Below the pieces are notes generated by a model. The model made no database searches and was not told where the DNA came from. It saw only the letters and a list, made by a program, of their open reading frames with translations. A program made the position numbers and the translations under genes. Positions 12,409 to 35,932 of a DNA stretch of 35,932 nucleotides are shown here, one piece after another. The stretch lies in assembly GCA_023150535.1 (NCBI GenBank), contig JAKLKS010000012.1, positions 1 through 35,932 on the forward strand, in the 5' to 3' direction. This DNA comes from Planctomycetota bacterium. GTDB taxonomy: Bacteria > Planctomycetota > JAJSAM01 > JAKLKS01. The first letter of the stretch is position 1, and each line of letters opens with the position of its first letter.

Positions 12409-14595
12409 ATGCGGAAGGCGGCGGCGCTGTCGATCGTCCTGGCGGGATGCGCGGCGACGGGGCCGGAGCGGGCCGGGACGGAAACCCCGGCGGCGATCCC
12501 CGCGCCCGCGGAGCGGGCCTCGCTGGAGATCCCCGCGGACCTCCTCGAGGAGGCGCGGGCCGCCCTCGGGCGGCCGGGGCGGCCCCTCGGATACACCTTC
12601 GAGGAGATGGCGAACTACTCCGGGCGGAAGCACCTCCTGCGCACCGTCGAGACCCTCTTCCGCGACGCGGCGACGCTGCCGCGCTTCTCCGGCGCGCTGG
12701 CGGAATCCCTCGTGAAGAACGCGTCGAAGCCGGAGGAGGTCGTGCGCATCGCCTTCGGGCTCACGGACGCCGTGGCGGGGCGGATGCTGCCGCTTCCGGA
12801 CTTGGAGGATGGCTGGGGGGTTCAGGGCGTCCCCGCGGAGGCGAGCCCCGAGGAGGTGCTGCATCTCCTCCAGGAAGGGAGGGTCATCTACCTTCCCGCC
12901 TCGGGCACGGCCGGGGTCCCGCCCCTGGATGAGGGGGACCTCGCTTCCTTCCGCCTCCTCCCGCCGGAGGCACAGCGGCTCGCGGTGCGTCTCCTCCTGG
13001 CCGGGAGGGATGGTGACCTCTGGCTGCAGGACGCCTTCCTCCGCACGGAGACCCACCATCGGGGCATCCTGGAGCCGTTCCCCGGCACCCTCGGTCCCTC
13101 CCTGCTGGACTCCGCCTCGGCTCCGCTCCGGGACGAGCGGATGGGGCAGTCGGCGACGACGAACACCCACGCCTTCCAGTGCCTGGAACTGCTCGATCGG
13201 GAGGCCCTCGCCTTCGGCTCCGTCCTCCTCGTCGCCCGGGTCCGCCAGGCGCTCGAGGAGTACGCGGCGGCGGAGAAGCACCACGTACCGGGCTCCTTCA
13301 AGGGGGTGACCCTCGACGTCGGTGGCGGCGGCCTCGTGGTGCACGGACCGGGAGACGACGTCATCGGGGAAGGCGCCGGCATCGTCCTGGACCTGGGCGG
13401 TGCCGACCGCTGGGTCGGGAGCCACGGAGCGACGGGAGCCTCCCCGCGGAGGGTCTCCCTGGCCATCGACCTCGCCGGCGACGACTCCTGGGACGGGGGG
13501 GAGGAGCCGGGGTCGCTCGCCTGCGGGCTCTTCGGGGTCGGGATCGCCATGGACCTCTCCGGGAACGACTCCTGGCGCTGCTCCGAGTCCGGGCTCGGCG
13601 CCGCCTGGTTCGGGACGGGGCTCCTCGTGGACTTCGCGGGGAACGACTCCTACGAGACCGCCACGAACCGGGGCCAGGGGTTCGCCTTCGCCGGCGTCGG
13701 CGCCCTCGTCGACCTCGCGGGGGACGACCGGTACGTCATCGGCCACGACGGCCAGGGGTACGGCGGGACGCTCGGCTGCGGGCTCCTCCTGGATGTATCA
13801 GGGAATGATACATACCTCGCCCGCGACGACGGGAACGTGAGCGAGATGTACCTCGGCCGCTCCGTCTCCATGGCCCAGGGGGTCGGGCAGGGCCGCCGCG
13901 CCGACCTCGGCGACGGCCGGAGCCTCGCCGGCGGCTTCGGCGTCCTCGTGGACGGCGCCGGGGACGACTCCTACCGCGCCGAGTGCTGGGCCCACGGGGC
14001 CGGGTACTGGTGGGCGGTCGGCATCCTCGAGGACCTCGGCGGGAACGACGTCTACCGCGACGGGAAGTACTCCCTGGGCGCCGCCGCCCACTTCGCCCTC
14101 GGCGTCTGCGTGGACGCCTCCGGGGACGACGCCTACAACGCCGGCAACGACGAGGCGGTCAACCAGTACCAGGGCCACGGGCGGGACGGCTCCCTCGGCG
14201 TCTTCGTGGACGGGGCGGGGGACGACCGCTACCTCCTGCGGGCCCACTGCGCCGGGTCCGGGGACCTCGGCTCCTTCGGCCTCTTCTGGGACCGCTGCGG
14301 GGACGACCTCTACGAGGTGGCCGCGGTGCGCCAGGGGGAGGGGAGCGGCTGGCCAGACACGCCGCCTCTCGGAAGCGCCACCGTCTCCGAGACCATGCGC
14401 TCCTGGCGGGACGACCTGGACGCCTGCGGCCTCTTCCTCGACACCGGCGGGAGGGACGCCTACGAGGGGGAGCCCGGGCCCTGGGGGGACGGGAGGGAGT
14501 GGCGGACGATCCGCGGGCCGCGGTCGAAGGGGTGGGGGAGGGACGTCGAGCGGTTCGCCCCGCCGGTGCGCCCGGCCCCGGGAGGGGCGGAGTAG
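12409..14595 (+). CDS. Lipoprotein with ~12 acidic 'D-x-x-G-[DN]-D-x-[YW]' repeats (solenoid-like surface protein)
   Basis: A 728-aa predicted lipoprotein with lipobox 'IVLAGC' (Cys near residue 14). Start ATG 12409 was chosen because GGGAGG ends five bases before it. Residues about 25-300 form a mixed, mostly helical domain. Residues about 326-690 carry twelve copies of a unit ending in hydrophobic-D-x-x-G-[DN]-D-x-[YW], spaced about 25-45 residues: LDLGGADRW, IDLAGDDSW, MDLSGNDSW, VDFAGNDSY, VDLAGDDRY, LDVSGNDTY, VDGAGDDSY, EDLGGNDVY, VDASGDDAY, VDGAGDDRY, WDRCGDDLY, LDTGGRDAY. Gly-rich linkers between units suggest stacked beta turns, perhaps binding Ca2+ as RTX repeats do. I know no named family; the function is unknown. 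Confidence 0.8.
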   Translation: MRKAAALSIVLAGCAATGPERAGTETPAAIPAPAERASLEIPADLLEEARAALGRPGRPLGYTFEEMANYSGRKHLLRTVETLFRDAATLPRFSGALAESLVKNASKPEEVVRIAFGLTDAVAGRMLPLPDLEDGWGVQGVPAEASPEEVLHLLQEGRVIYLPASGTAGVPPLDEGDLASFRLLPPEAQRLAVRLLLAGRDGDLWLQDAFLRTETHHRGILEPFPGTLGPSLLDSASAPLRDERMGQSATTNTHAFQCLELLDREALAFGSVLLVARVRQALEEYAAAEKHHVPGSFKGVTLDVGGGGLVVHGPGDDVIGEGAGIVLDLGGADRWVGSHGATGASPRRVSLAIDLAGDDSWDGGEEPGSLACGLFGVGIAMDLSGNDSWRCSESGLGAAWFGTGLLVDFAGNDSYETATNRGQGFAFAGVGALVDLAGDDRYVIGHDGQGYGGTLGCGLLLDVSGNDTYLARDDGNVSEMYLGRSVSMAQGVGQGRRADLGDGRSLAGGFGVLVDGAGDDSYRAECWAHGAGYWWAVGILEDLGGNDVYRDGKYSLGAAAHFALGVCVDASGDDAYNAGNDEAVNQYQGHGRDGSLGVFVDGAGDDRYLLRAHCAGSGDLGSFGLFWDRCGDDLYEVAAVRQGEGSGWPDTPPLGSATVSETMRSWRDDLDACGLFLDTGGRDAYEGEPGPWGDGREWRTIRGPRSKGWGRDVERFAPPVRPAPGGAE

Positions 14596-14608: not shown

Positions 14609-14998
14609 TCAGGCGCCCGGGCGGGGCCGGGCGTTCGAGGCGACCTTCTGCTGGGCCATCACGATGCAGCGGAAGATCTCCACCGTGTCCGGGGGGACCG
14701 CGATGGAGGCGGCCACCTGGGGGATCTCGCGGGAGAGCGTCCCCTCGATCCGGTCCCGCGCGAGGAGGATGGCCGGCGCCCCGAGGCCCCCCTCGCGGAG
14801 CTGCTTCATGAGCTCCAGCCCGTCCCCCTGCGTCTCCAGCCGGTCGGAGATGACCAGGAGGTCGTAGGGGTTCTCCTTGGCCAGCTCCAGGGCCCAGGCG
14901 TCCTCGGCCGTGTCCACGGTGGTGCCCTCGAACTGCTGGAGGGCGACCTTGACGCGGTCGCGCACGTTGTGGTCCTTCTCGACGAGGAGCACTCTCAT
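14609..14998 (-). CDS. Single-domain, partly degenerate response-regulator receiver protein
   Basis: A 129-aa CheY-like receiver domain with no output domain. It begins 'MRVLLVEKDHNVRD'. 'YDLLVISDRLETQGDGLEL' aligns with the CheY segment around the phosphorylated Asp, making D52 the phosphoacceptor candidate with the right spacing to the following D-G. Other conserved positions are changed: the second acidic residue is Lys8, the Thr/Ser switch region reads 'AILLARD', and the Lys of the K-P motif is replaced ('SIAVPPDTV'). Phosphorylation may therefore be weak or absent. It is divergent from the RNase HII-like gene, and no histidine kinase is nearby. Confidence 0.75.
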   Translation of the reverse strand: MRVLLVEKDHNVRDRVKVALQQFEGTTVDTAEDAWALELAKENPYDLLVISDRLETQGDGLELMKQLREGGLGAPAILLARDRIEGTLSREIPQVAASIAVPPDTVEIFRCIVMAQQKVASNARPRPGA

Positions 14999-24665: not shown

Positions 24666-25671
24666 GGCCGCCCTCGGAAGGCTCCTCCTCGGCGGGTCGG
24701 CGGCCCTCGGCCTCATCGTGGGCTCCTTCCTCAACGTGGTGATCCTCCGCCTCCCGGCGGGGATGTCCGTGGTCCGGCCCCGCTCCCGCTGCCCCGGCTG
24801 CGGGGCGGGGATCGCCTGGTACGACAACGTGCCGGTCCTGTCCTGGCTGCTCCTGAGGGCCCGGTGCCGCGGGTGCGGGACGGGGATCTCCTGGCGCTAC
24901 CCCTTCGTGGAGGCGCTGACGGGGGCGATCTTCGCCCTGGCGGCCTGGCTCCTCGTCCTGCGGTGGCGGGGGTGGACGGGGGACCCCCTCCGCCTGGCCC
25001 ACCTCGGGGTCGCCCAGGCCTTCGCGGCGGCCATGATCGCCCTCTCGGGCATCGACTTCGACCACCGCATCCTCCCGGACCGGATCACGAAGCCGGGCAT
25101 GGCGGCCGGTTTCCTCGCGAGCCTCCTCCTGCCACGGCTCCAGTCCCCCTCGGGCTCCTGGGGGATCCCCCCGGCGGGGGAGGCGGCGGTGCTCTCCGCC
25201 GCCGGCATGGTCCTCGGCTACGGGCTCCTGTGGGGCGTCGGGTGGCTCGGGGAGAGGGTGTTCCGCCGGGAGGCCATGGGGCTGGGGGACTGCAAGCTGC
25301 TCGCCATGATCGGCGCCTTCGCCGGGCCCGGCGGGGTCCTCCTCGCCGCCGGGGCGGGGATGGTGCTCGGCCTCCTCCTCGGCGCGGTGCAGCACCTGAG
25401 GACCCGGGACGCCGCCTTCCCCTTCGGGCCGGCGCTGGCGGCGGGGGGGCTCGGGGCGGTGCTGGCGAGGCGGGAGCTGCTGGAGGGGTACCACCGGGCC
25501 CAGGACCTCATGGCCGACCCGAGGGGGGGGCTCCTCCTGGCGGCCCTCTGCACGGGTCTCCTCCTCTGGATCCGCGGGAGGCTGCCGCGGGGGGTGTTCC
25601 TCGGCCTCCTGGTCCTCATGCTGGTCATGGCGGGGTTGAACCTCGCCCTGCTGGCCGCGGCGCCGGGGTAG
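24652..25671 (+). CDS. pilD: Prepilin peptidase / N-methyltransferase (A24 family)
   Basis: An inner-membrane aspartic protease of about 339 aa that cleaves prepilin leaders before Phe and methylates the new N-terminus. Visible are 'LIVGSFLNVVILRLP' in TM1, and the cytoplasmic Zn site 'CPGCGAGIAWYDNVPVLSW' with 'CRGCGTGISWRYP'. The catalytic Asps are in 'GIDFDHRILPD' and 'GLGDCKLLAMIGA'; a C-terminal pair of extra helices follows. A canonical start exists only at GTG 24718, which would remove most of TM1. The frame is open upstream, with CTG 24652 eight bases after GGAGG (24639-24643), so I propose CTG and a 14-base overlap with the acetyltransferase. It probably serves the pilins at 33.7-35.9 kb. 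Confidence 0.88.
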   Translation: MPPLEAALGRLLLGGSAALGLIVGSFLNVVILRLPAGMSVVRPRSRCPGCGAGIAWYDNVPVLSWLLLRARCRGCGTGISWRYPFVEALTGAIFALAAWLLVLRWRGWTGDPLRLAHLGVAQAFAAAMIALSGIDFDHRILPDRITKPGMAAGFLASLLLPRLQSPSGSWGIPPAGEAAVLSAAGMVLGYGLLWGVGWLGERVFRREAMGLGDCKLLAMIGAFAGPGGVLLAAGAGMVLGLLLGAVQHLRTRDAAFPFGPALAAGGLGAVLARRELLEGYHRAQDLMADPRGGLLLAALCTGLLLWIRGRLPRGVFLGLLVLMLVMAGLNLALLAAAPG

Positions 25672-26034: not shown

Positions 26035-26763
26035 ATGAAGCGTCTCGCCGGACTCGGACTGCTCACCCTGGCCGCCGGCCTCGCCGCCTCGGGATGCGCC
26101 TCCACCGGGGCCGACTGGCGCGAGCGCTACCTGGAGAAGGAGCGGGACGCCAGCGACCTCGCCTCCCAGCTCTCCGAGGAGCGCAACGCCCACTCCACCG
26201 CCGTCGCCCAGCTCGAGGAGGCCCGCGCCCGCATCACCGACCTGGAGGGCGAGAACGCCTCCCTCCGGAGCCGCCCCGCCGAGGCCGCCGCCCCCGCCCC
26301 CGCCGGCGACGAGATGGGCGACACGCTGGCCCGCCTCAAGCAGCAGGGCATGGACGCCTACCAGACCGCCGACGGGAACATCGCCATCGTCATCCCCTCG
26401 GACATCAACTTCGCCGCGGGCTCCAAGGACCTCACCGGCCCCGGCAAGGCGGCGGTCGGGCAGGTCGCGAAGGAGCTCGACGGCCAGTTCGCCGGCTACA
26501 CGGTCCGGATCGAGGGCCACACCGACGGCGACCCCATCCGGAAGTCGAAGTTCACCGACAACTTCGAGCTCGGCGCCGAGAGGGCGCTGACGGTCCTGCG
26601 GTCGCTCGTCAAGGACCACGGGCTCGCCCCGGAGCGGCTCATCGCCGCCACCCGCGGGGAGACGGTGCCCGTGGCCGACAACAAGTCCGAGAAGGGCAAG
26701 GCCCGCAACCGCCGCGTCGAGGTCGTCGTGATGGTCCCGAAGGACGCCGCGCTGGCCAAGTAG
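26035..26763 (+). CDS. OmpA-family peptidoglycan-associated lipoprotein with coiled coil
   Basis: A 242-aa predicted lipoprotein. The signal peptide ends in 'LAASGC' (Cys near 21). Residues about 30-80 form a coiled coil ('SQLSEERNAHSTAVAQLEEA'), and an Ala/Pro linker follows. An OmpA/MotB C-terminal domain (about 105-238) has 'INFAAGSKDLTGPGKAAV', 'VRIEGHTDGDPI', 'FELGAERALTVLRSL' and 'KARNRRVEVVVMVP'. Such domains grip peptidoglycan, so the protein probably ties the outer membrane to the wall. It is monocistronic: a clear promoter precedes it and a strong terminator follows at 26918-26953. A GGAGGAAGGA binding site supports ATG 26035. Confidence 0.9.
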   Translation: MKRLAGLGLLTLAAGLAASGCASTGADWRERYLEKERDASDLASQLSEERNAHSTAVAQLEEARARITDLEGENASLRSRPAEAAAPAPAGDEMGDTLARLKQQGMDAYQTADGNIAIVIPSDINFAAGSKDLTGPGKAAVGQVAKELDGQFAGYTVRIEGHTDGDPIRKSKFTDNFELGAERALTVLRSLVKDHGLAPERLIAATRGETVPVADNKSEKGKARNRRVEVVVMVPKDAALAK

Positions 26764-27069: not shown

Positions 27070-29115
27070 ATGGCTCCATCGAGCGCCGACATCCGCACCC
27101 TCGCCCTCGCCGGGCACGGGGACACGGGCAAGACGACGCTGGCCGAGGCGATGCTGTTCCGGGCGGGGGCGATCAAGAGGCAGGGCCGGGTGTCGGAGGG
27201 GAGCACGACCCTCGATCACGACCAGGACGAGAAGGAGGCGCGCCACAGCATCGACGCCTCGGTGGGGCGGCTGGAGTGGAAGGGCCGGCGCTTCTACCTC
27301 GTGGACACGCCGGGGTACCCGGACTTCATCGGGGCCGCCCTGTCCGCCTTCCCCGCCGTGGAATCGGTCCTCCTCTGCGTGAACGCCGCCCGCGGGGTGT
27401 CGGTGAACACCCGGCGCATGTGGGACGCGGCCACCCAGGCCGGCAAGGCCCGGGTCATCGTGGTGACGAAGATCGACGCGGAGAACCTCGACCTGCCGGG
27501 GCTCGTCCGCGAGCTGCGCGAGACCTTCGGCGAGGGGGTCCTCCCCGTGAACCTCCCCGTCGGGCGCGGCCCCGCCGTCAAGGAGGTCGTCTCCGTCCTG
27601 GCCCTCCCCCACGTCCCGCGGCACGAGGACGTCGAGGGGGACGAGGCCGAGGCCCGCCGCTCCCTCGTGGACAAGGTCGTGGAGGAGGACGAGGCCCTGA
27701 TGACGAAGTACCTCGAGGGGGAGGCCCCCGGGGACCAGGAGCTGCGGCAGGCCCTGGGGCACGCCATCGGGTCGGGGAACATCGTCCCCGTCCTCTTCAC
27801 CGCCCCCGAGAAGGGGATCGGCGTGGCCGAGCTCCTCGACTTCGTGGAGGCCGAGCTCCCCGGGGCCGACGGGGAGCTCCACCACCCGCTCCGGGACGCG
27901 GAGGGAGCCGCCCCGATCACCCTGCGCTCCAACGCCCCCTTCTGCGCCGTCGTCTGGAAGACCGCCATCGACTCCTTCGTCGGGAAGCAGTCCTTCCTGC
28001 GCATCCTCTCCGGGACCTTCCGGGAGGGCATGGAGGTCCTCGTCCCCCGCACGGGGCGCACGGAGAAGCTCGCCCACGGCTTCCTGCCCCAGGGGAAGGA
28101 GGAGACCCCCGTGAAGGAGGCCGTCGCGGGCGAGATCCTGGTCGTCACGAAGATCGAGGGGCTGGCGCTGGGCGACACGCTCTGCGACCCGGCCCGCCCG
28201 GTGCGCTACGCCCCCCTCGCCTGGCCCGACTCCATGGTCTCCCTCGCGCTGGAGGCGAAGTCGAGCAACGACGAGCAGAAGCTCGGCCCCGCGCTCTCGA
28301 AGCTGATGGAGGAGGACCCGACCTTCCGGGTCGAGGTCCACCGCGAGACCAAGGAGCGGGTCGCCTCGGGGATGAGCGGCCTCCACCTGCAGGCCGTCCT
28401 CGGCCGCCTGAAGCGGCGCTTCCACCTCGACGTCGCGACCCACGTCCCCCGCATCCCCTACCGGGAGACCGTCCAGGGGCGGGCCGAGGGGCACCACCGG
28501 CACAAGAAGCAGACCGGCGGCCGGGGCCAGTTCGCCGAGGTCTACGTCCGGGTCTGGGCGAAGGAGCGGGGGAGCGGGTTCGAGTTCGTGGACTCCGTCG
28601 TCGGGGGCACCGTGCCCCGCCAGTTCATCCCCGCCGTGGAGAAGGGGGCGCGGGCGGCCCTCGAGAAGGGGTTCCTCGCCGGCTACCCCGTCGTGGACGT
28701 GGCCCTGGAGCTCTACGACGGCAAGGACCACCCGGTGGATTCCTCCGAGGCCTCCTTCAAGCTGGCGGGGGAGAGGGGGTTCCGGGACGCCTTCCTCAAG
28801 GCGAAGCCCGTCCTGCTCGAGCCGGTGATGCGCCTGGGGATCGTCATCCCCTCCCGCTTCATGGGGGACATCACCGGGGACCTCAACAAGAGGCGCGGCC
28901 GCATCCAGGGCATGGACTCCCGGGGCTCCCTCCAGGTCATCGAGGCGCTGGTCCCGCTGGCGGAGATCCCCAACTACTCCACCGAGCTCCGCTCCATCAC
29001 CGGCGGCGAGGGCTCCTACTCCATGGTCCACGACCACTACGACGTCGTGCCGAACTCGCTGGCCGAGGCCATCATCTCCCGCCACTCGAAGCCGGGCGAG
29101 GAGGACGAGGAGTAG
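27070..29115 (+). CDS. Elongation factor G-like GTPase (EF-G paralogue)
   Basis: A 681-aa translational GTPase. The P-loop is 'AGHGDTGKTT' (G15-T22; EF-G proper usually has A-H-I-D-A-G-K-T-T). Switch II is 'LVDTPGYPDF', and the base-specificity motif is T-K-I-D. Domain II follows with 'LRSNAPFCAVVWKT' and 'GFLPQGKEE'. Domain III holds 'LSKLMEEDPTFRVEVHRETKE' (in two pieces), domain IV holds 'KKQTGGRGQFAEVYVRV', and domain V has 'RRGRIQGMDSRGSLQVIEA'. It resembles the EF-G-like (EF-G2/FusA2-type) paralogues more than canonical FusA, because of the GHGDTGK loop and the lack of str-operon neighbours. It may act in translocation or recycling. ATG 27070 follows GGGGAGG. Confidence 0.88.
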   Translation: MAPSSADIRTLALAGHGDTGKTTLAEAMLFRAGAIKRQGRVSEGSTTLDHDQDEKEARHSIDASVGRLEWKGRRFYLVDTPGYPDFIGAALSAFPAVESVLLCVNAARGVSVNTRRMWDAATQAGKARVIVVTKIDAENLDLPGLVRELRETFGEGVLPVNLPVGRGPAVKEVVSVLALPHVPRHEDVEGDEAEARRSLVDKVVEEDEALMTKYLEGEAPGDQELRQALGHAIGSGNIVPVLFTAPEKGIGVAELLDFVEAELPGADGELHHPLRDAEGAAPITLRSNAPFCAVVWKTAIDSFVGKQSFLRILSGTFREGMEVLVPRTGRTEKLAHGFLPQGKEETPVKEAVAGEILVVTKIEGLALGDTLCDPARPVRYAPLAWPDSMVSLALEAKSSNDEQKLGPALSKLMEEDPTFRVEVHRETKERVASGMSGLHLQAVLGRLKRRFHLDVATHVPRIPYRETVQGRAEGHHRHKKQTGGRGQFAEVYVRVWAKERGSGFEFVDSVVGGTVPRQFIPAVEKGARAALEKGFLAGYPVVDVALELYDGKDHPVDSSEASFKLAGERGFRDAFLKAKPVLLEPVMRLGIVIPSRFMGDITGDLNKRRGRIQGMDSRGSLQVIEALVPLAEIPNYSTELRSITGGEGSYSMVHDHYDVVPNSLAEAIISRHSKPGEEDEE

Positions 29116-29240: not shown

Positions 29241-30305
29241 TTGGTCACCATCGAGGAACTGCTCCAGCTCATGGTCCAGAGGGGGGGCTCCGACCTCCAC
29301 TGCACGGCGGGGGCCCCTCCCAAGATCCGGGTGCACGGGGAGATGCTCTCCACGGAGCACGACGTCTTCACGCCGGACATGACGCAGAAGCTGGTCTACT
29401 CCTTCCTCACCTCCGACCAGATCGCGAAGTTCGAGAAGAACCTCGAGCTCGACCTCTCCTTCGGCGTCGACGGCCTCGGCCGGTTCCGCGTCAACGTCTT
29501 CCAGCAGAGGGGCGCCGTGGGCTGCGTGCTCCGCATCATCCCCTACGAGATCAAGAACTTCACCCAGCTCGGCCTGCCCATCGACGTCTGCACCAAGCTG
29601 TGCCGCGAGCCGAAGGGGCTCATCCTGGTCACCGGGGCCACGGGCTCCGGCAAGTCCACGACCATGGCCGCGATGATCAACGAGATCAACGAGACCGAGC
29701 AGGTCCACATCATCACCATCGAGGACCCCATCGAGTTCGTGCACAGGAACAAGAAGGCCCTCTTCAACCAGCGCGAGGTGGGCTCCGACACCCACGGCTT
29801 CAAGGAGGCGCTGAAGAGCGTGCTCCGCCAGGACCCCGACGTCGTGCTCGTGGGCGAGATGCGCGACCAGGAGACCATCGAGGCCGCCCTGACGCTGGCC
29901 GAGACGGGCCACCTGACCTTCGGGACCCTGCACACGTCGGACACCGTCCAGACCATCTCCCGCATCGTGGACGTGTTCCCGGCCTACCAGCAGCAGCAGA
30001 TCCGCACCCAGCTCGCCTTCTCCCTGGTGGGGGTGTTCTGCCAGCAGCTGATCCCGAAGACCGGGGGCAAGGGCCGCGTCATGGCCGCGGAGATCATGAT
30101 CTCCAACGCCGCCGTCAAGGCCCTCATCCGCGACGACAAGGCCCACCAGATCTACTCCATCATCCAGACCGGCGGGAAGCTGGGCATGAAGACGATGAAC
30201 CAGTCCCTGGCGGACCACGTCAAGAGCGGCGCCATCACCATGGACGAGGCGATGACGAGGACCACGGACACCGAGGACCTCAAGCGGCTGCTGGCGCGGA
30301 GCTGA
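29241..30305 (+). CDS. pilT: Type IV pilus twitching motility ATPase PilT
   Basis: A 354-aa hexameric retraction ATPase of typical PilT length. The N-terminal PAS-like domain begins 'TIEELLQLMVQRGGSDLH' (S-D-L-H signature). Walker A is 'VTGATGSGKSTT' near residues 128-139. The Asp box is 'IITIEDPIEFVH', Walker B is 'DVVLVGEMRDQETI', and the His box is 'TGHLTFGTLHTSDTVQTI'. The PilT-specific 'AEIMISNAAV' and the late 'LGMKTMNQSL' are present. The start is TTG 29241 with GGGAGG nine bases upstream. It heads a pilT-pilB-pilC run on the plus strand. Confidence 0.97.
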   Translation: MVTIEELLQLMVQRGGSDLHCTAGAPPKIRVHGEMLSTEHDVFTPDMTQKLVYSFLTSDQIAKFEKNLELDLSFGVDGLGRFRVNVFQQRGAVGCVLRIIPYEIKNFTQLGLPIDVCTKLCREPKGLILVTGATGSGKSTTMAAMINEINETEQVHIITIEDPIEFVHRNKKALFNQREVGSDTHGFKEALKSVLRQDPDVVLVGEMRDQETIEAALTLAETGHLTFGTLHTSDTVQTISRIVDVFPAYQQQQIRTQLAFSLVGVFCQQLIPKTGGKGRVMAAEIMISNAAVKALIRDDKAHQIYSIIQTGGKLGMKTMNQSLADHVKSGAITMDEAMTRTTDTEDLKRLLARS

Positions 30306-30385: not shown

Positions 30386-32170
30386 ATGGTTTCCTTCAAC
30401 AAGGGCCTGGTGAAGATCCTCAAGGACGCGAAGGCCATCAGCGACGAGGACCTGAAGAAGGTCAACGACGCGGCCGCCGCGGACCGGGGCTCCCTCTCCG
30501 CCGCCATCGTCAAGGCCGGGCTCATGGGGGAGCGGGACCTCCTCGGGATCATCGCCGAGCAGGTCAAGTACCCGCCCATCGACCTCGAGGGGTACACGCC
30601 GGACAAGAAGGTCCTGGAGACCCTGAGCGAGGACCTGGCGAAGATGCACGGCGTCTTCCCCGTGAGCCGCATCGGCAACGTGCTCACCCTGGCCGTCTCC
30701 AACCCCTACGACGTCGTGAAGCTGGACGACATCCGCATCATCACCGGCTGCGACCTGCGCCTCGTCCTGGCCCTGGAGGACCCGCTGAAGAAGGCCGTCG
30801 AGCGGGCCTACAACCAGGACAAGCAGGCGATGCAGGACATGATGTCCTCCCTCAGCGAGAACGAGGACATCGAGCTGTCGGAGAAGGCCGAGGAGGAGGA
30901 GAAGGTCGACCTCAGCGCCATCTCCTCCGACGCCGACTCGCCGGTCGTGAAGTACGTGAACATGATGATCGCCGCCGCCATCAAGGAGAAGGCGTCGGAC
31001 ATCCACATCGAGCCGCTCGAGAAGCGGACCCGCGTGCGCTTCCGCAACGGCGGCGTGATGCGCGAGATCCCCCCGGCGCTGCCGAAGAAGATGCACGGCG
31101 CCGTGATCTCCCGCATCAAGATCATGGCCGACCTCGACATCGCCGAGCGCCGCAAGCCCCAGGACGGCAAGTTCCAGATGAAGGCCGAGGGGCGCCAGGT
31201 CGACTTCCGCGTGAGCATCCTCCCCCTGATCCACGGGGAGAAGGTGTGCATGCGACTCCTGGACTCCGGGAACCTGACCCTGGACCTCGGGAAGCTCGGC
31301 CTCCACGAGAAGGCCCTGACGGACTTCCGCGCGGCCATCAACTCCCCCTACGGGATGGTGCTCGTGACGGGCCCCACGGGCTCCGGGAAGTCCACGACCC
31401 TCTACTCCGCCGTGAAGGAGCTCCTCTGCGACGAGGACAACTTCGTGACGGTCGAGGACCCCGTCGAGTACCAGCTCGAGGGCGTCAACCAGGTCCCCGT
31501 GAACCCCAAGCGCGGCCTGACCTTCGCCGGGGCCCTGCGCTCCATCCTCCGGCAGGACCCCGACGTGGTGATGATCGGCGAGATCCGCGACCAGGAGACC
31601 ATCGAGATCGCGATCAAGGCCGCCCTCACCGGCCACCTCGTGCTCTCCACGCTCCACACCAACGACGCCCCCGGCACCATCACGCGCATCATCGACATGG
31701 GCATCGACCCCTTCAACATCGCCTCGGCGACCCTTCTCTGCTCGGCCCAGCGCCTCCTGCGCAAGGTCTGCGCCCAGTGCAAGAAGCCGGCGGAGATCAT
31801 GCCCATCGAGCGCTACCTCGAGGTGGGGTTCCTCCAGAGCGAGGCGGAGAGGATCGTCTCGGGGGAGGTGAAGCTCATGACCGCGGACGGCTGCGCCATG
31901 TGCGTCAACGGTTTCAAGGGCCGCTTCGGGGTGCTCGAGACGATGCCCATCACGGAGAACGTCAAGCGGGTCATCATCGACGGGGGCTCCTCCATCGACA
32001 TCAAGAACAAGGCCATCGAGGACGGGATGATCACCCTGCGGCGGGTCGCCCTCCTCGGGTGCATGGAGGGGAAGACCACCCTGGCGGAGGTCGTCGGGTC
32101 GACCCTCGCCGACAAGGACAAGCCCGCCTTCAAGAAGCGGGAGGACGTTGGAGCCGCGGAACCGGCCTAG
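30386..32170 (+). CDS. pilB: Type IV pilus assembly ATPase PilB (GspE family)
   Basis: A 594-aa assembly ATPase. The N-terminal MshEN-like domain (about 1-150) has 'LLGIIAEQVKYPPIDLEGY' and 'LTLAVSNPYDVVKLDDI'; such domains can bind c-di-GMP. A charged linker ('EKAEEEEKVD') leads to the motor: 'KASDIHIEPLEKRTRVRFR', Walker A 'GPTGSGKSTTLY' near residues 329-340, 'FVTVEDPVEYQL', 'DVVMIGEIRDQETIEIA' and 'HLVLSTLHTNDAPGT'. The zinc tetracysteine is C-x2-C near 462 and C-x2-C near 503. It powers pilus or pseudopilus extension. ATG 30386 follows AAAGGAG. Confidence 0.97.
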   Translation: MVSFNKGLVKILKDAKAISDEDLKKVNDAAAADRGSLSAAIVKAGLMGERDLLGIIAEQVKYPPIDLEGYTPDKKVLETLSEDLAKMHGVFPVSRIGNVLTLAVSNPYDVVKLDDIRIITGCDLRLVLALEDPLKKAVERAYNQDKQAMQDMMSSLSENEDIELSEKAEEEEKVDLSAISSDADSPVVKYVNMMIAAAIKEKASDIHIEPLEKRTRVRFRNGGVMREIPPALPKKMHGAVISRIKIMADLDIAERRKPQDGKFQMKAEGRQVDFRVSILPLIHGEKVCMRLLDSGNLTLDLGKLGLHEKALTDFRAAINSPYGMVLVTGPTGSGKSTTLYSAVKELLCDEDNFVTVEDPVEYQLEGVNQVPVNPKRGLTFAGALRSILRQDPDVVMIGEIRDQETIEIAIKAALTGHLVLSTLHTNDAPGTITRIIDMGIDPFNIASATLLCSAQRLLRKVCAQCKKPAEIMPIERYLEVGFLQSEAERIVSGEVKLMTADGCAMCVNGFKGRFGVLETMPITENVKRVIIDGGSSIDIKNKAIEDGMITLRRVALLGCMEGKTTLAEVVGSTLADKDKPAFKKREDVGAAEPA

Positions 32171-32316: not shown

Positions 32317-33528
32317 ATGGCGAAGTTCAAGTTCAACGCGAAGTCGGCGGCCGGGCGGACGGAGTCCGGGGTCATCAACGCCCGGACCGAGGAGGAGGCG
32401 CTGGCCGAGCTCCGCAAGCGCCAGCTCTCGAACATCACCATCAAGGTGGACAAGGGCGGCTTCGGCCTGAAGCCCGGGGCCTCGACCGAGGACATCGTCA
32501 TCTTCACCCGCCAGCTGGCCACCATGATCGGGGCCGGCATCCCCCTCATGGAGGCCATGGAGATCCTCCACGCCCAGTCCGCCAACCCCCGCTTCGCCAT
32601 GGTGCTGGACCGGGTGGTCGAGGACATCCGGGCCGGCTCCGACCTGTCCGCCGCCATGGGCAAGTACCCGACGGTCTTCTCCAACATCTACCTCGCCATG
32701 ATCCGCGCCGGCGAGGTGTCGGGCCAGATCGACGAGATCCTGGTGCGCCTCGCGGGGTACATGGAGGAGGCCCAGAAGCTGAAGTCGGAGATCAAGTCGG
32801 CCATGACCTACCCGGTGGTCTCCATCTGCATGATCACCGGCATCACCCTCTTCCTGATGGTCTACATCGTCCCCCAGTTCGGCGTCATCTTCGGGCAGAT
32901 CACGGACAAGAACGGCAACCCCCTGGAGCTCCCCGGGATCACCAAGGTCACCCTCGGCATCTCCGACTTCATCCTGAACAAGTGGTGGGTGATGCTGCTG
33001 GGCATCATCGGCTTCGCCTTCGCCCTCAAGACCTACAAGAAGACCGACCGCGGCGCCTACCAGTGGGACTGGCTGATGCTCAAGATGCCGGTCTTCGGCC
33101 AGCTGTTCTCCAAGGTGGCCCTCTCCCGGTTCTCCAAGACCTTCGCCACCCTCATCAAGTCCGGCGTCCCCATCCTCGGGGCCCTGGAGATCGTCTCCGC
33201 GACCTCCGGCAACCGGGTCATCATGGAGGCCGTCGACGGCGCCCGCGACAGCGTCCGCGAGGGCAACACGCTGGCGGAGCCCCTCGGGCGCAGCCCCGTC
33301 TTCCCCCCCATGGTGGTCAAGATGATCGCCATCGGCGAGCGGTCGGGCGCCCTGGAGTCCCTCCTCGAGAAGATCTCCATCTTCTACGACGAGCAGGTGG
33401 AGGCCTCGGTGAAGGCCCTGACGAGCCTCATCGAGCCCATCATGATCGGGATCATGGGCGTGATGGTCGGCGGCATCGTGCTCGCCGTCTTCTACCCCAT
33501 CCTCAAGCTGCAGTCGGCCCTGATGTAG
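32317..33528 (+). CDS. pilC: Type IV pilus inner-membrane platform protein PilC (GspF family)
   Basis: A 403-aa platform protein. The N-terminus 'MAKFKFNAKSAAGRTESGV' is typical of the family. Two T2SF domains follow: the first with 'FTRQLATMIGAGIPLMEAM' (about 65-190), the second with 'FSKTFATLIKSGVPILGAL' (about 265-390). Three membrane helices are visible at about 167-190 ('GITLFLMVYIVPQFGVIFG'), 220-245 and 380-400. ATG 32317 with GAGGAGGAA upstream is chosen over the upstream in-frame GTG, whose leader would be a low-complexity Ala/Gly run. The 146 bases before it contain TAGGCT (32187-32192) and GC microrepeats. Confidence 0.96.
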   Translation: MAKFKFNAKSAAGRTESGVINARTEEEALAELRKRQLSNITIKVDKGGFGLKPGASTEDIVIFTRQLATMIGAGIPLMEAMEILHAQSANPRFAMVLDRVVEDIRAGSDLSAAMGKYPTVFSNIYLAMIRAGEVSGQIDEILVRLAGYMEEAQKLKSEIKSAMTYPVVSICMITGITLFLMVYIVPQFGVIFGQITDKNGNPLELPGITKVTLGISDFILNKWWVMLLGIIGFAFALKTYKKTDRGAYQWDWLMLKMPVFGQLFSKVALSRFSKTFATLIKSGVPILGALEIVSATSGNRVIMEAVDGARDSVREGNTLAEPLGRSPVFPPMVVKMIAIGERSGALESLLEKISIFYDEQVEASVKALTSLIEPIMIGIMGVMVGGIVLAVFYPILKLQSALM

Positions 33529-33602: not shown

Positions 33603-33647
33603 CGGTCGGCCGCAACCCGCATCCCGCGATGGGGTTGCGGCCGACCG
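33603..33647. repeat. 16-bp perfect inverted repeat upstream of the first pilin promoter
   Basis: The arm at 33603-33618 is the exact reverse complement of 33632-33647, with 13 bases between. It ends ten bases before the -35 box of the pilin promoter. It may be a second pilC terminator, an operator, or a copy of a dispersed genomic repeat. Confidence 0.6.
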
Positions 33648-33757: not shown

Positions 33758-34540
33758 GTGAGCCTGACACGAACGCAACGGAGGTCCGAGGTCGGTCCGC
33801 CCTCCCGGGGTCCGTCCGGGGGCTTCACCCTCGTCGAACTCCTCATCGTGGTCGCCATCATCGCGGCCCTGGCCGCCATCGCCGTCCCCAACCTCCTGGC
33901 CGCGAAGCTCAACGCCAACGAGACCTCCGCCCTCGCCGCCCTCCGGAACCTCGTCTCCTCCCAGGCCCAGCTCGTCGTGGCCGGGAGGATCGACGCCGAC
34001 CGGGACGGCCGCGGGGAGTACGGGACCATCCTGGAGCTCTCCGGCGCGGTGGGGACGAGGAGGGGCTTCGCGCCGGGCCCGCCCGGGACGGCGGACTTCA
34101 GCCTGCGGGGCCCCCCCATCGAGCCGGCCATCCTGTCGGCCTCCTTCTCCGTCGTGAACCCGCAGGGGTTCGCCACGAAGTCGGGCTACGCCTTCTCCGT
34201 CCTCCTCCCGGACGGGGCCGCGCCCGGGGGGTTCGTCCACGAGGTCGGGCCCGCCGCCTCCCCCTCCTTCGACGGGGACGGGCCGGCGGTCGGGGTCGAC
34301 GCGTCGGAGGTCTCCTGGTGCGCCTACGCCCAGCCGCTCCTCATGGGCAGCACCGGGCGGAGGCGGTTCTTCGCCAACCAGGCGGGGGATCTCCTCCAGT
34401 CGCAGAACGAGGTCGCCCGGGGGCAGGGGACGGCGGCGGCCGTGGCCGGCCCCTCGGCCCTCCTCGGCACGGGCTTCACCGCCTCTCCCGCCATCGGGAC
34501 CAGGGGGCGGGACGGGGACGTCTGGACCGTGGCGAACTGA
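33758..34540 (+). CDS. Type IV pilin / type II pseudopilin-like protein (copy 1)
   Basis: A 260-aa prepilin. The leader ends P-S-G-G before 'FTLVELLIVVAIIAALAAIA', the class III cleavage site with Phe+1 and Glu+5. The helix continues into 'VPNLLAAKLNANETSALAAL'. The C-terminal globular domain has the acidic 'DADRDGRGEYGT' loop, 'FVHEVGPAASPSF' and 'WCAYAQPLLMG', ending with 'GDVWTVAN'. The leader has about 22 residues if GTG 33758 is the start; AGGGAG lies ten bases upstream, a long spacing. It is about the same length as the next gene and clearly paralogous. It would be processed by PilD and assembled by PilB/PilC. Confidence 0.9.
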   Translation: MSLTRTQRRSEVGPPSRGPSGGFTLVELLIVVAIIAALAAIAVPNLLAAKLNANETSALAALRNLVSSQAQLVVAGRIDADRDGRGEYGTILELSGAVGTRRGFAPGPPGTADFSLRGPPIEPAILSASFSVVNPQGFATKSGYAFSVLLPDGAAPGGFVHEVGPAASPSFDGDGPAVGVDASEVSWCAYAQPLLMGSTGRRRFFANQAGDLLQSQNEVARGQGTAAAVAGPSALLGTGFTASPAIGTRGRDGDVWTVAN

Positions 34541-34623: not shown

Positions 34624-35406
34624 GTGGACGACATCGCGGACGCGGGGGGGAGCGGGGAGCGGGGCCGGCGGGCGCCCCGCGAGCCCGGCTTCACCCTCAT
34701 CGAGCTCATGATCGTCATCGCCATCATCGCCATCATCGCGGCCATCGCGGTCCCGAACCTGCTCGCGGCCAAGCTCTCCGCCAACGAGACGGCCGCCATC
34801 GCGACCCTGCGCAGCATCGTCTCCTCCCAGGCGCAGGTCTCCACGGTGGGGAAGATCGACGCCGACGGGGACGGGCGCGGGGAGTTCGGGACCTTCCTCG
34901 AGCTGACGGGCACGGTGGGGGTCCGCAGGGGCTACACGCCGGGCACCCCCGCCTCCTCCGACTTCTCGGTGCAGGGCCCCCCCCTGAACCCCGCGGTCCT
35001 CTCCTCCGTCCTCGCCCGGATCGACGCCAACGGCTACGTGACCAAGGCGGGCTACGCCTTCATCCTCTTCCTCCCCGACGCGGCGGTCCCGGCGGGCTTC
35101 GTCCACGAGACCGGGCCCTCGACGACCCCGGGCCTGACGGGGGGGACGGGCAGCGTGGGGGTGGACCTCTCCGAGGACTACTGGTGCGTCTACGCCCACC
35201 CGGTGATGCTGGGGAACAGCGGGAACCGGCGGTTCTTCGCCACCCAGAGGGGGGACCTCCTCCAGTCGCCCAACGACGTGGCGAAGTTCCAGGGCACCAC
35301 CGCGGTCCCCCCGGGCAACTCCGCCTACCGGGGGACCGGGATCTCCTCCAGCCTCGCGGTCGGCACCGTCGGCAACGACGGGGACGTCTGGAAGGCCACG
35401 AACTGA
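34624..35406 (+). CDS. Type IV pilin / type II pseudopilin-like protein (copy 2)
   Basis: A 260-aa prepilin with leader ending 'APREPG' before 'FTLIELMIVIAIIAIIAAIA'. The same layout as copy 1 follows: 'KLSANETAAIATLRSIVSSQ', the acidic 'DADGDGRGEFGT' loop, 'FVHETGPSTTPGL', 'YWCVYAHPVMLG' and the C-terminal 'GDVWKATN'. GTG 34624 is the likely start: AAGGAAGGAG lies eight bases before it, and a much longer open frame upstream overlaps copy 1 out of frame. No clear promoter is seen in the 83-base gap, so it may be co-transcribed with copy 1. Its helix-coding DNA is nearly identical to copy 3. Confidence 0.9.
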   Translation: MDDIADAGGSGERGRRAPREPGFTLIELMIVIAIIAIIAAIAVPNLLAAKLSANETAAIATLRSIVSSQAQVSTVGKIDADGDGRGEFGTFLELTGTVGVRRGYTPGTPASSDFSVQGPPLNPAVLSSVLARIDANGYVTKAGYAFILFLPDAAVPAGFVHETGPSTTPGLTGGTGSVGVDLSEDYWCVYAHPVMLGNSGNRRFFATQRGDLLQSPNDVAKFQGTTAVPPGNSAYRGTGISSSLAVGTVGNDGDVWKATN

Positions 35407-35423
35407 CCCCCCCGTCCGGGGGG
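35407..35423 (+). terminator. Candidate terminator hairpin after pilin copy 2
   Basis: A C-run at 35407-35413 can pair with the G-run at 35418-35423 around GTCC, directly after the stop codon. Pure G-C stem, no T-run. Confidence 0.4.
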
Positions 35424-35497
35424 CCCCTTGCCTAGGGACGTACAACGACGCGCAACCTGTTGAAAACAAAGGAGTTGAAGCAATCCTCCGGGTACCC

Positions 35498-35527
35498 TTG
35501 ATGGACACGCACCCGGTTGGGTACTCT
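35498..35527 (+). promoter_or_regulatory. Candidate sigma70-type promoter of the third pilin gene
   Basis: TTGATG (35498-35503) and TACTCT (35522-35527) are 18 bases apart, matching the layout of the first pilin promoter. Confidence 0.5.
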
Positions 35528-35647
35528 TGCACCGTTGAAATCGATCGGAAGGCCGGCATCGCTTCGGGCGGCTCTGAAGAGGAAGGAACCCCAGACGACG
35601 AAAGACGGAGGTTGCACGGGCCCCTCCGGCGTCCGGATGGGAACGGT

Positions 35648-35670
35648 CATACCTAGACAGTCTAGGTATG
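35648..35670. promoter_or_regulatory. 23-bp perfect palindrome in the third pilin leader (operator or hairpin)
   Basis: CATACCTAGAC (35648-35658) and GTCTAGGTATG (35660-35670) are exact reverse complements around a single A. The AT-rich sequence contrasts with its surroundings. It fits a dimeric regulator's binding site; as RNA its loop would be too tight at the centre, so DNA binding is the likelier role. Confidence 0.65.
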
Positions 35671-35678
35671 AAAGGGAA

Positions 35679-35696
35679 GGTGTCCAGGTGGGCACC
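35679..35696 (+). promoter_or_regulatory. Leader hairpin just before the third pilin's ribosome binding site
   Basis: GGTGTCC (35679-35685) and GGGCACC (35690-35696) pair over seven positions with one G-U around AGGT. AAAGGG (35671-35676) can pair instead with CCCTTT (35695-35700). GAGGAGG begins seven bases later, so folding could influence translation. Confidence 0.4.
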
Positions 35697-35717
35697 CTTT
35701 TCGAGGAGGATGCAGAG

Positions 35718-35932
35718 ATGAAGAAGACGGAAAGCGGCTTCACGCTCATCGAGCTGATGATCGTCATCGCGATCATCGCCATCATCGCGGCCATCGCGAT
35801 CCCGAACCTGCTCGCGGCCAAGCTCTCTTCCAACGAGACCGCGGCGCTGGCGACCCTCCGCAACCTGGCCTCCTGCCAGGCGCAGATCCAGACCTCCGGC
35901 AAGATCGACTGCGACTCCGACGGCATCGGGGA
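35718..35932 (+). CDS. Type IV pilin-like protein (copy 3), cut by the window end
   Basis: Only the first 71 codons are in the window. The short leader M-K-K-T-E-S-G precedes 'FTLIELMIVIAIIAIIAAIA', then 'IPNLLAAKLSSNETAALATL', two residues 'SC' in 'NLASCQAQIQTSGKIDCDSD', and the start of the acidic loop. ATG 35718 follows GAGGAGG at a suitable distance. The seven-residue leader is of the classic type IVa length, unlike the longer leaders of copies 1 and 2. The separate promoter, long leader and palindrome suggest this is the differently regulated, perhaps major, pilin. Confidence 0.9.
   Translation, partial: MKKTESGFTLIELMIVIAIIAIIAAIAIPNLLAAKLSSNETAALATLRNLASCQAQIQTSGKIDCDSDGIG

Follow-up and report, generated by a model that had tools for sequence, protein, structure and literature searches.

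A single-copy palindrome in the leader of a planctomycete pilin gene as a candidate regulatory element

The leader of the third pilin gene in a type IV pilus cluster carries a perfect palindrome of 25 nt. We read it, with a probability of about 0.4, as a single-copy, lineage-specific cis-regulatory element of one near-duplicate pilin, most likely a two-fold-symmetric DNA operator. The operator is slightly favoured over an RNA stem-loop, which is nearly as likely. The window, that is the whole stretch of 35,932 nt that was analysed, is the entire contig C33 of a Planctomycetota genome of 4.42 Mb, which consists of 529 contigs and is 87.9% complete; among the four best named protein relatives of the second pilin, three carry the label Planctomycetota. 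On this contig lies a type IV pilus cluster ending in three pilins, and the features that bear on the palindrome are as follows.

24718-25671: prepilin peptidase
26035-26763: OmpA-like
27070-29115: EF-G
29241-30305 and 30386-32170: two T2SSE ATPases
32317-33528: T2SSF
33758-34540, plus strand: first pilin gene, GFTLVELLIVVAII signal by eye, start codon uncertain
34624-35406, plus strand: second pilin gene, N_methyl
35427-35446, plus strand: conserved upstream element CTTGCCTAGGGACGTACAAC, also 5' of the paralogue on contig C524
35498-35527, plus strand: predicted sigma-70-like promoter TTGATG-18-TACTCT, by eye, with the -10 TACTCT at 35522-35527
35647-35671, no strand: perfect palindrome, 12-bp arms and central A (in RNA form, an 11-bp stem with a CAG loop)
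35672-35687, plus strand: 16-nt block AAGGGAAGGTGTCCAG common to the C524 paralogue leader, starting at the first base past the palindrome
35674-35702, plus strand: second predicted RNA stem-loop, ending directly 5' of the Shine-Dalgarno sequence; -14.7 kcal/mol, equalled by 2 of 200 shuffles
35703-35709, plus strand: GAGGAGG, likely Shine-Dalgarno sequence, 8 nt before the ATG
35718-35932, plus strand: third pilin gene MKKTESGFTLIELMIVIAII..., running off the contig; Pfam N_methyl, E 5.6e-10; possible continuation on contig C28

The palindrome sits in the 311-nt gap 5' of the third pilin gene. The initial annotation had described it as a 23-bp palindrome, CATACCTAGAC-A-GTCTAGGTATG at 35648-35670, which is exact as given; the symmetry continues for one more base on each side, to TCATACCTAGAC-A-GTCTAGGTATGA. 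Its contrast with the GC-rich surroundings was also borne out, since the GC content falls from 73.5% for the window and 60.5% for the leader to 40% in the palindrome (42% in its arms). The spacing had been put at about 120 bases past the -10 and about 48 before the ATG, and we measured 119 nt from the predicted -10 to the 25-nt palindrome and 46 nt from there to the pilin ATG (35718-35720). Could the palindrome be coding? The frame of the pilin is open upstream and an in-frame ATG at 35637 would place the palindrome inside an N-terminal extension. This was rejected because no Shine-Dalgarno sequence is seen at 35637, whereas GAGGAGG precedes the start of MKKTESG at 35718 by 8 nt, and because many related pilins begin like MKKTESG.

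The two-fold symmetry is beyond chance for the leader. Of 1000 Markov shuffles of the leader, one produced an arm of at least 12. Analytically, such arms are expected there 5e-4 times for any composition (loops 0-15) and 2e-5 times if at least 7 of their bases are A or T. Over the window in full, 12-bp arms are expected 0.38 times regardless of composition (loops 0-15) and are hence unremarkable, while AT-rich ones are expected 5e-5 times; arms of at least 10 with at least 50% AT occurred once in 60 simulated windows. Another inverted repeat of the window, at 33603-33647 between the T2SSF gene and the first pilin, is GC-rich, with perfect 16-bp arms and a 13-nt loop, and is perhaps a terminator.

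How does the palindrome compare with other inverted repeats of the genome? A genome sample of 920,887 bases (906,332 without N) holds 53 perfect inverted repeats with arms of at least 12, of which 39 are intergenic by a crude gene caller. Their median arm GC is 0.83, and it is below 0.5 in only two, the palindrome of the pilin leader and one on contig C3. The latter (L156:2994-3026) is a 33-nt AT-rich perfect palindrome, ATACCAAGTGATAATCATATTATCACTTGGTAT, which lies directly 5' of an AAA_14/DUF4143 ATPase gene and is followed by TATACT; it is a possible autoregulatory operator. The same sample has 14 perfect hairpins with arms of 18-44 bp, 13 of them intergenic by the crude calls (for example L207:10421-10501, L169:5617-5682, L230:1808-1910, L197:6723-6789 and L128:9299-9373). 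Several of these have sequence in common (TACGGAGCCAGGCTCCCTTTCTTC, CTGTGGATAAC and AACCCGACCCGTTT) and resemble REP or hairpin mobile elements.

A paralogue in the same genome allows a further comparison. The pilin on contig C524, which lies behind a CAAX-protease-like gene, is 94% identical to the third pilin over 71 residues, and the palindrome is missing from its leader. Three elements are common to both leaders: CCCTTGCCTAGRGWCSTACA at about -290 (alignment P 0.007), the promoter-like TTG(A)TGGAC...GTACTCTT at about -220 to -187, which in C524 reads TTGTGG-17-TACTCT, and the 16-nt block AAGGGAAGGTGYCCAG (P 0.002 against shuffled leaders). The upstream element, CTTGCCTAGNGNCNTACANC, lies at 35427-35446 in the window and at L127:484-503, about 285 nt before the pilin starts. 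A pattern built from these two places occurs without mismatch at those two only, and with three mismatches at 4 further places against 7 and 6 for the controls; the element is a candidate activator site. Whether the palindrome and this element are one and the same site was also considered, CCTAG being present in both, but this is only a lead: with 29 copies of CCTAG in 131,920 strand-bases, another one in the leader is no surprise.

A 20-base pattern for the 16-nt block, with at most 3 mismatches allowed, was found in C524, at the window site and at one place on C29. Its resumption directly after the palindrome is compatible with an insertion in the window copy or a loss in C524. An insertion at exactly this point is, however, not established, because the C524 block aligns more weakly also to -142..-118 of the window leader (score 22 vs 27) and a global alignment pairs the two leaders otherwise. 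Note also that an identical 77-base end inside the pilin gene is shared by three contigs, C33 (window 35856-35932), C524 (start of L127) and C28 (start of L128), so that the assembly forks there, one downstream sequence being joined to two different leaders and 5' parts. This may be either an assembly fork from duplicate pilins or a real common body. The separate regulation of the third pilin that had been proposed at the outset is compatible with the paralogue, which has the same promoter and leader motifs and no palindrome.

Is the palindrome repeated or conserved elsewhere? In the own genome, with at most 3 mismatches in 18 specified bases, it was found at 35647-35671 only. Looser forms fell below their controls: a 15-base core with at most 2 mismatches gave 8 other places where the reversed control gave 18, and TACCTA-N7-TAGGTA with at most 2 mismatches gave 1 other place against 11. 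These searches cover the 88%-complete genome, and sites more degenerate than the mismatch limits would escape them. Among phylum genomes, matches with at most 2 mismatches occurred in 5 of 392 including the own genome, that is in 4 of 391 others (G118, G322, G350 and G380, six places), where the reversed control matched in 23 genomes. The leader alone had no match in 8 other genomes of the order. A query of leader plus gene matched in 52 of 59 genomes, the own included, and among the matches listed, all those outside the own genome start at query position 289 or later, at most 22 nt 5' of the ATG; none of them therefore reaches the palindrome at query 240-264. It is present in 1 of 43 extracted pilin leaders, that of the window, and absent from the other 42, and an exact search of 249 loci found it only in seven, all of which represent this place. 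The relatives compared share only the order or phylum; that none shares the genus or family is the main limit of these comparisons. A scan for copies clustered before pilus or surface genes and a look for conservation before orthologous pilins had been proposed as checks; the former returned no other copy and the latter nothing before the related pilin genes examined, so both came out against a multi-site regulon. Among the papers listed for a planctomycete pilin palindrome, none was relevant by title.

What function could such a lone site have? For an operator speak the symmetry, the low arm GC, the position between the start codon and a promoter-like sequence common to the paralogue, and the C524 leader itself, with the same motifs, no palindrome and the block resuming where the palindrome ends. 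In the perfect-armed members of GTATC-N7-GATAC, a dyad taken up below, arm GC is 0.27, 0.33 and 0.40 (C228, C130 and C42), so that in composition the palindrome stands closer to this presumed protein site than to the hairpins that are usual in the genome. As DNA, with its AT-rich letters and odd centre, it resembles a protein site more than it does the GC-rich hairpins. The proposed scenario is that a dimeric regulator would bind the palindrome about 113 bp downstream of the predicted transcription start, the bound regulator would stall or modulate RNA polymerase, and the third pilin would then respond to a signal that the paralogue with a similar promoter ignores. In this scenario we infer promoter use, protein binding, the action on elongation and the difference in expression.

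Against the operator stand the lack of a second site within the mismatch limits and of any counterpart in relatives of the order or phylum, the failure of the predicted promoter at 35498-35527 in a consensus promoter scan, and the fact that a transcript would fold to a stable stem-loop at the same place, so that RNA could account for the anatomy too. A regulator often binds 5' of its own gene too. Among 32 of the 33 called genes of the window (5 of the 32 without any Pfam match), Pfam recognised neither an HTH nor another DNA-binding regulator domain, and it gave no DNA-binding regulator in 6 of the 9 called genes of C28. One receiver-domain protein (14609-14992) is under the Pfam cut-off and far from the palindrome, and an AlgH-like gene (1498-2079) lies at the opposite end of the window. 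The initial annotation had suggested a roadblock repressor site. The palindrome may be a lone operator of this kind, but nothing positive demands one, and the RNA stem-loop accounts for the same arrangement.

In that RNA reading, only slightly less likely than the operator, the 11-bp stem with its CAG loop would stand beside the second stem-loop ending at the Shine-Dalgarno sequence, and the pair would protect an abundant pilin mRNA from decay or tune the translation start. The predicted hairpin is stable, the leader being presumably transcribed. Positions 35640-35720 fold at -29.4 kcal/mol (z -3.2, with 0 of 200 shuffles as stable) into two adjacent stem-loops that leave the Shine-Dalgarno sequence free; the palindrome alone gives -13.9 kcal/mol, the second hairpin -14.7 kcal/mol, and the stretch 35571-35720 has z -3.3. 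Perfect inverted repeats with arms of at least 8 between -120 and -15 occur in 8 of the 43 pilin leaders, which come from the own genome, from phylum relatives and from six named loci; 1.2 were expected, and the sequences of the repeats are unrelated. However, one of the eight is the palindrome itself and at least three (L029, L036 and L053) lie between tandem pilins and are perhaps terminators, which leaves four. In the C524 leader another hairpin, of 7 bp and different sequence, lies at nearly equal distance, -72 to -53, but that region is no stabler than its shuffles (z -0.48). Other stretches of the window leader are also less convincing, with z only -1.74 for -120 to -15 and -1.26 for 328 nt, and hairpins of a 73% GC genome do not usually have a three-base loop on an AT-rich stem. 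No examined relative has the palindrome, hence there are no compensatory changes to compare. Two particular kinds of RNA signal were rejected. A riboswitch or known Rfam RNA is not indicated, as the window had 0 hits at the gathering score and the leader 4 matches at E of at least 4.6; the same search on 13 own and related loci gave one tRNA only. Nor is an intrinsic terminator or attenuator, as 35380-35760 has 0 terminator-like sites and no T-run; the CTTTTC of the second hairpin is taken up into its stem.

Might the palindrome do nothing at all? A neutral or recent insertion, for example one left behind by a palindromic mobile element or produced by template switching, seems unlikely to us. 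Such an origin would agree with a single copy that is absent from the paralogue, with the shared block that begins at the 3' edge of the palindrome, with the short repeat GGGAA on both sides, and with a genome in which long perfect hairpins are present and in part repeated, as in REP-like elements. Yet the palindrome fits none of the long hairpin families by eye, it has no second copy, GGGAA is too short for a target duplication, and the alternative alignments of the C524 leader tell against an insertion point. A mobile or viral origin was rejected: an exact match was absent from viral contigs, the phage search with the leader was blank, and the plasmid search returned one match at chance level (E 0.5). 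Far less probable still is a second or antisense promoter marked by the palindrome. The minus strand has TGGACA-16-TAGACT at 35686-35659, with its -10 inside the palindrome; it matches 9 of 12 consensus positions where shuffles give 0.0 (sd 0.2), and is the sole consensus match in the leader. It is a consensus match only, though, and transcription from it would enter the leader without an obvious product. Over the palindrome, the plus strand has no promoter match, and the activator site of a second promoter that had been offered as an alternative to the roadblock found no backing, the sole match being on the opposite strand.

A separate dyad of this genome deserves description. GTATC-N7-GATAC has 74 copies in the own genome (G000), including one in the window at 13795-13811, against 0 for the reversed control, and 0 or 1 in eight relatives of the order. 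In the sample, GTATC and GATAC were spaced by 7 in 20 cases and by 9 in one, with none at other spacings of 3-15. The stricter form GTATCA-N5-TGATAC has 41 copies in the own genome; of 391 other genomes of the phylum, 39 contain it at all and none more than 3 times. From 23 instances, the consensus AGTGTATCA-YAWTR-TGATACACT was derived. By the crude gene calls, 9 of 20 sampled sites are intergenic, two of them lying between convergent gene ends (C228:927 and C130:5720), and 11 of 20 are inside genes, which makes the dyad less like a promoter operator and more like a chromosome-wide site. MatS and SlmA sites are of this chromosome-wide kind, and the dyad may be likened to them. It resembles the target of a DNA-binding protein specific to this lineage, with perhaps a role in chromosome organisation. 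Among the papers listed for its letters, none was relevant by title. The pilin palindrome was rejected as a member, since the half-sites differ. The dyad is a stronger signal, unrelated in sequence to the palindrome, and may matter more.

What would the operator, or the stem-loop, mean for the pilins? One quite improbable scenario is that duplicate pilins with a common promoter module were split in use by the gain of one leader palindrome, the switching working through an elongation roadblock or a leader stem-loop and not through different promoters. If the palindrome is functional, it would show how duplicated pilins with like promoters gain separate control in this lineage. It is ordinary in kind, and its interest lies only in being a possible point of divergence between the two duplicates; as one site with neither a repeat nor conservation in the sequences that were searchable, it leaves the general picture unchanged.

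Membership of the palindrome in the roadblock operators, the REP elements or the leader hairpins cannot be claimed, and it has likenesses to each. Stabilising stem-loops are known from the 5' leaders of abundant bacterial mRNAs, for example ompA. The pilin leader resembles them in its stable predicted 5'-leader hairpins, in the surface-protein gene and in the open Shine-Dalgarno sequence, and differs in that the hairpin is away from the predicted 5' end, has an AT-rich stem and a three-base loop, and was not found in relatives. REP elements are extragenic palindromes of 20-40 bp in high copy number (PMC3733652); ours is a palindrome of that size in a bacterial genome, but it is single-copy, and copy number excludes it from this class. 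For C.Kpn2I, a site downstream of the promoter is reported to act as an elongation roadblock (PMC6237814). The pilin site, in contrast, is in a leader and not in a coding region, and it is a candidate by sequence for which no second site was found; like dyad operators of the C.Kpn2I type, it is a symmetric site inside the predicted transcribed region and 3' of the predicted promoter, where it could stall RNA polymerase.
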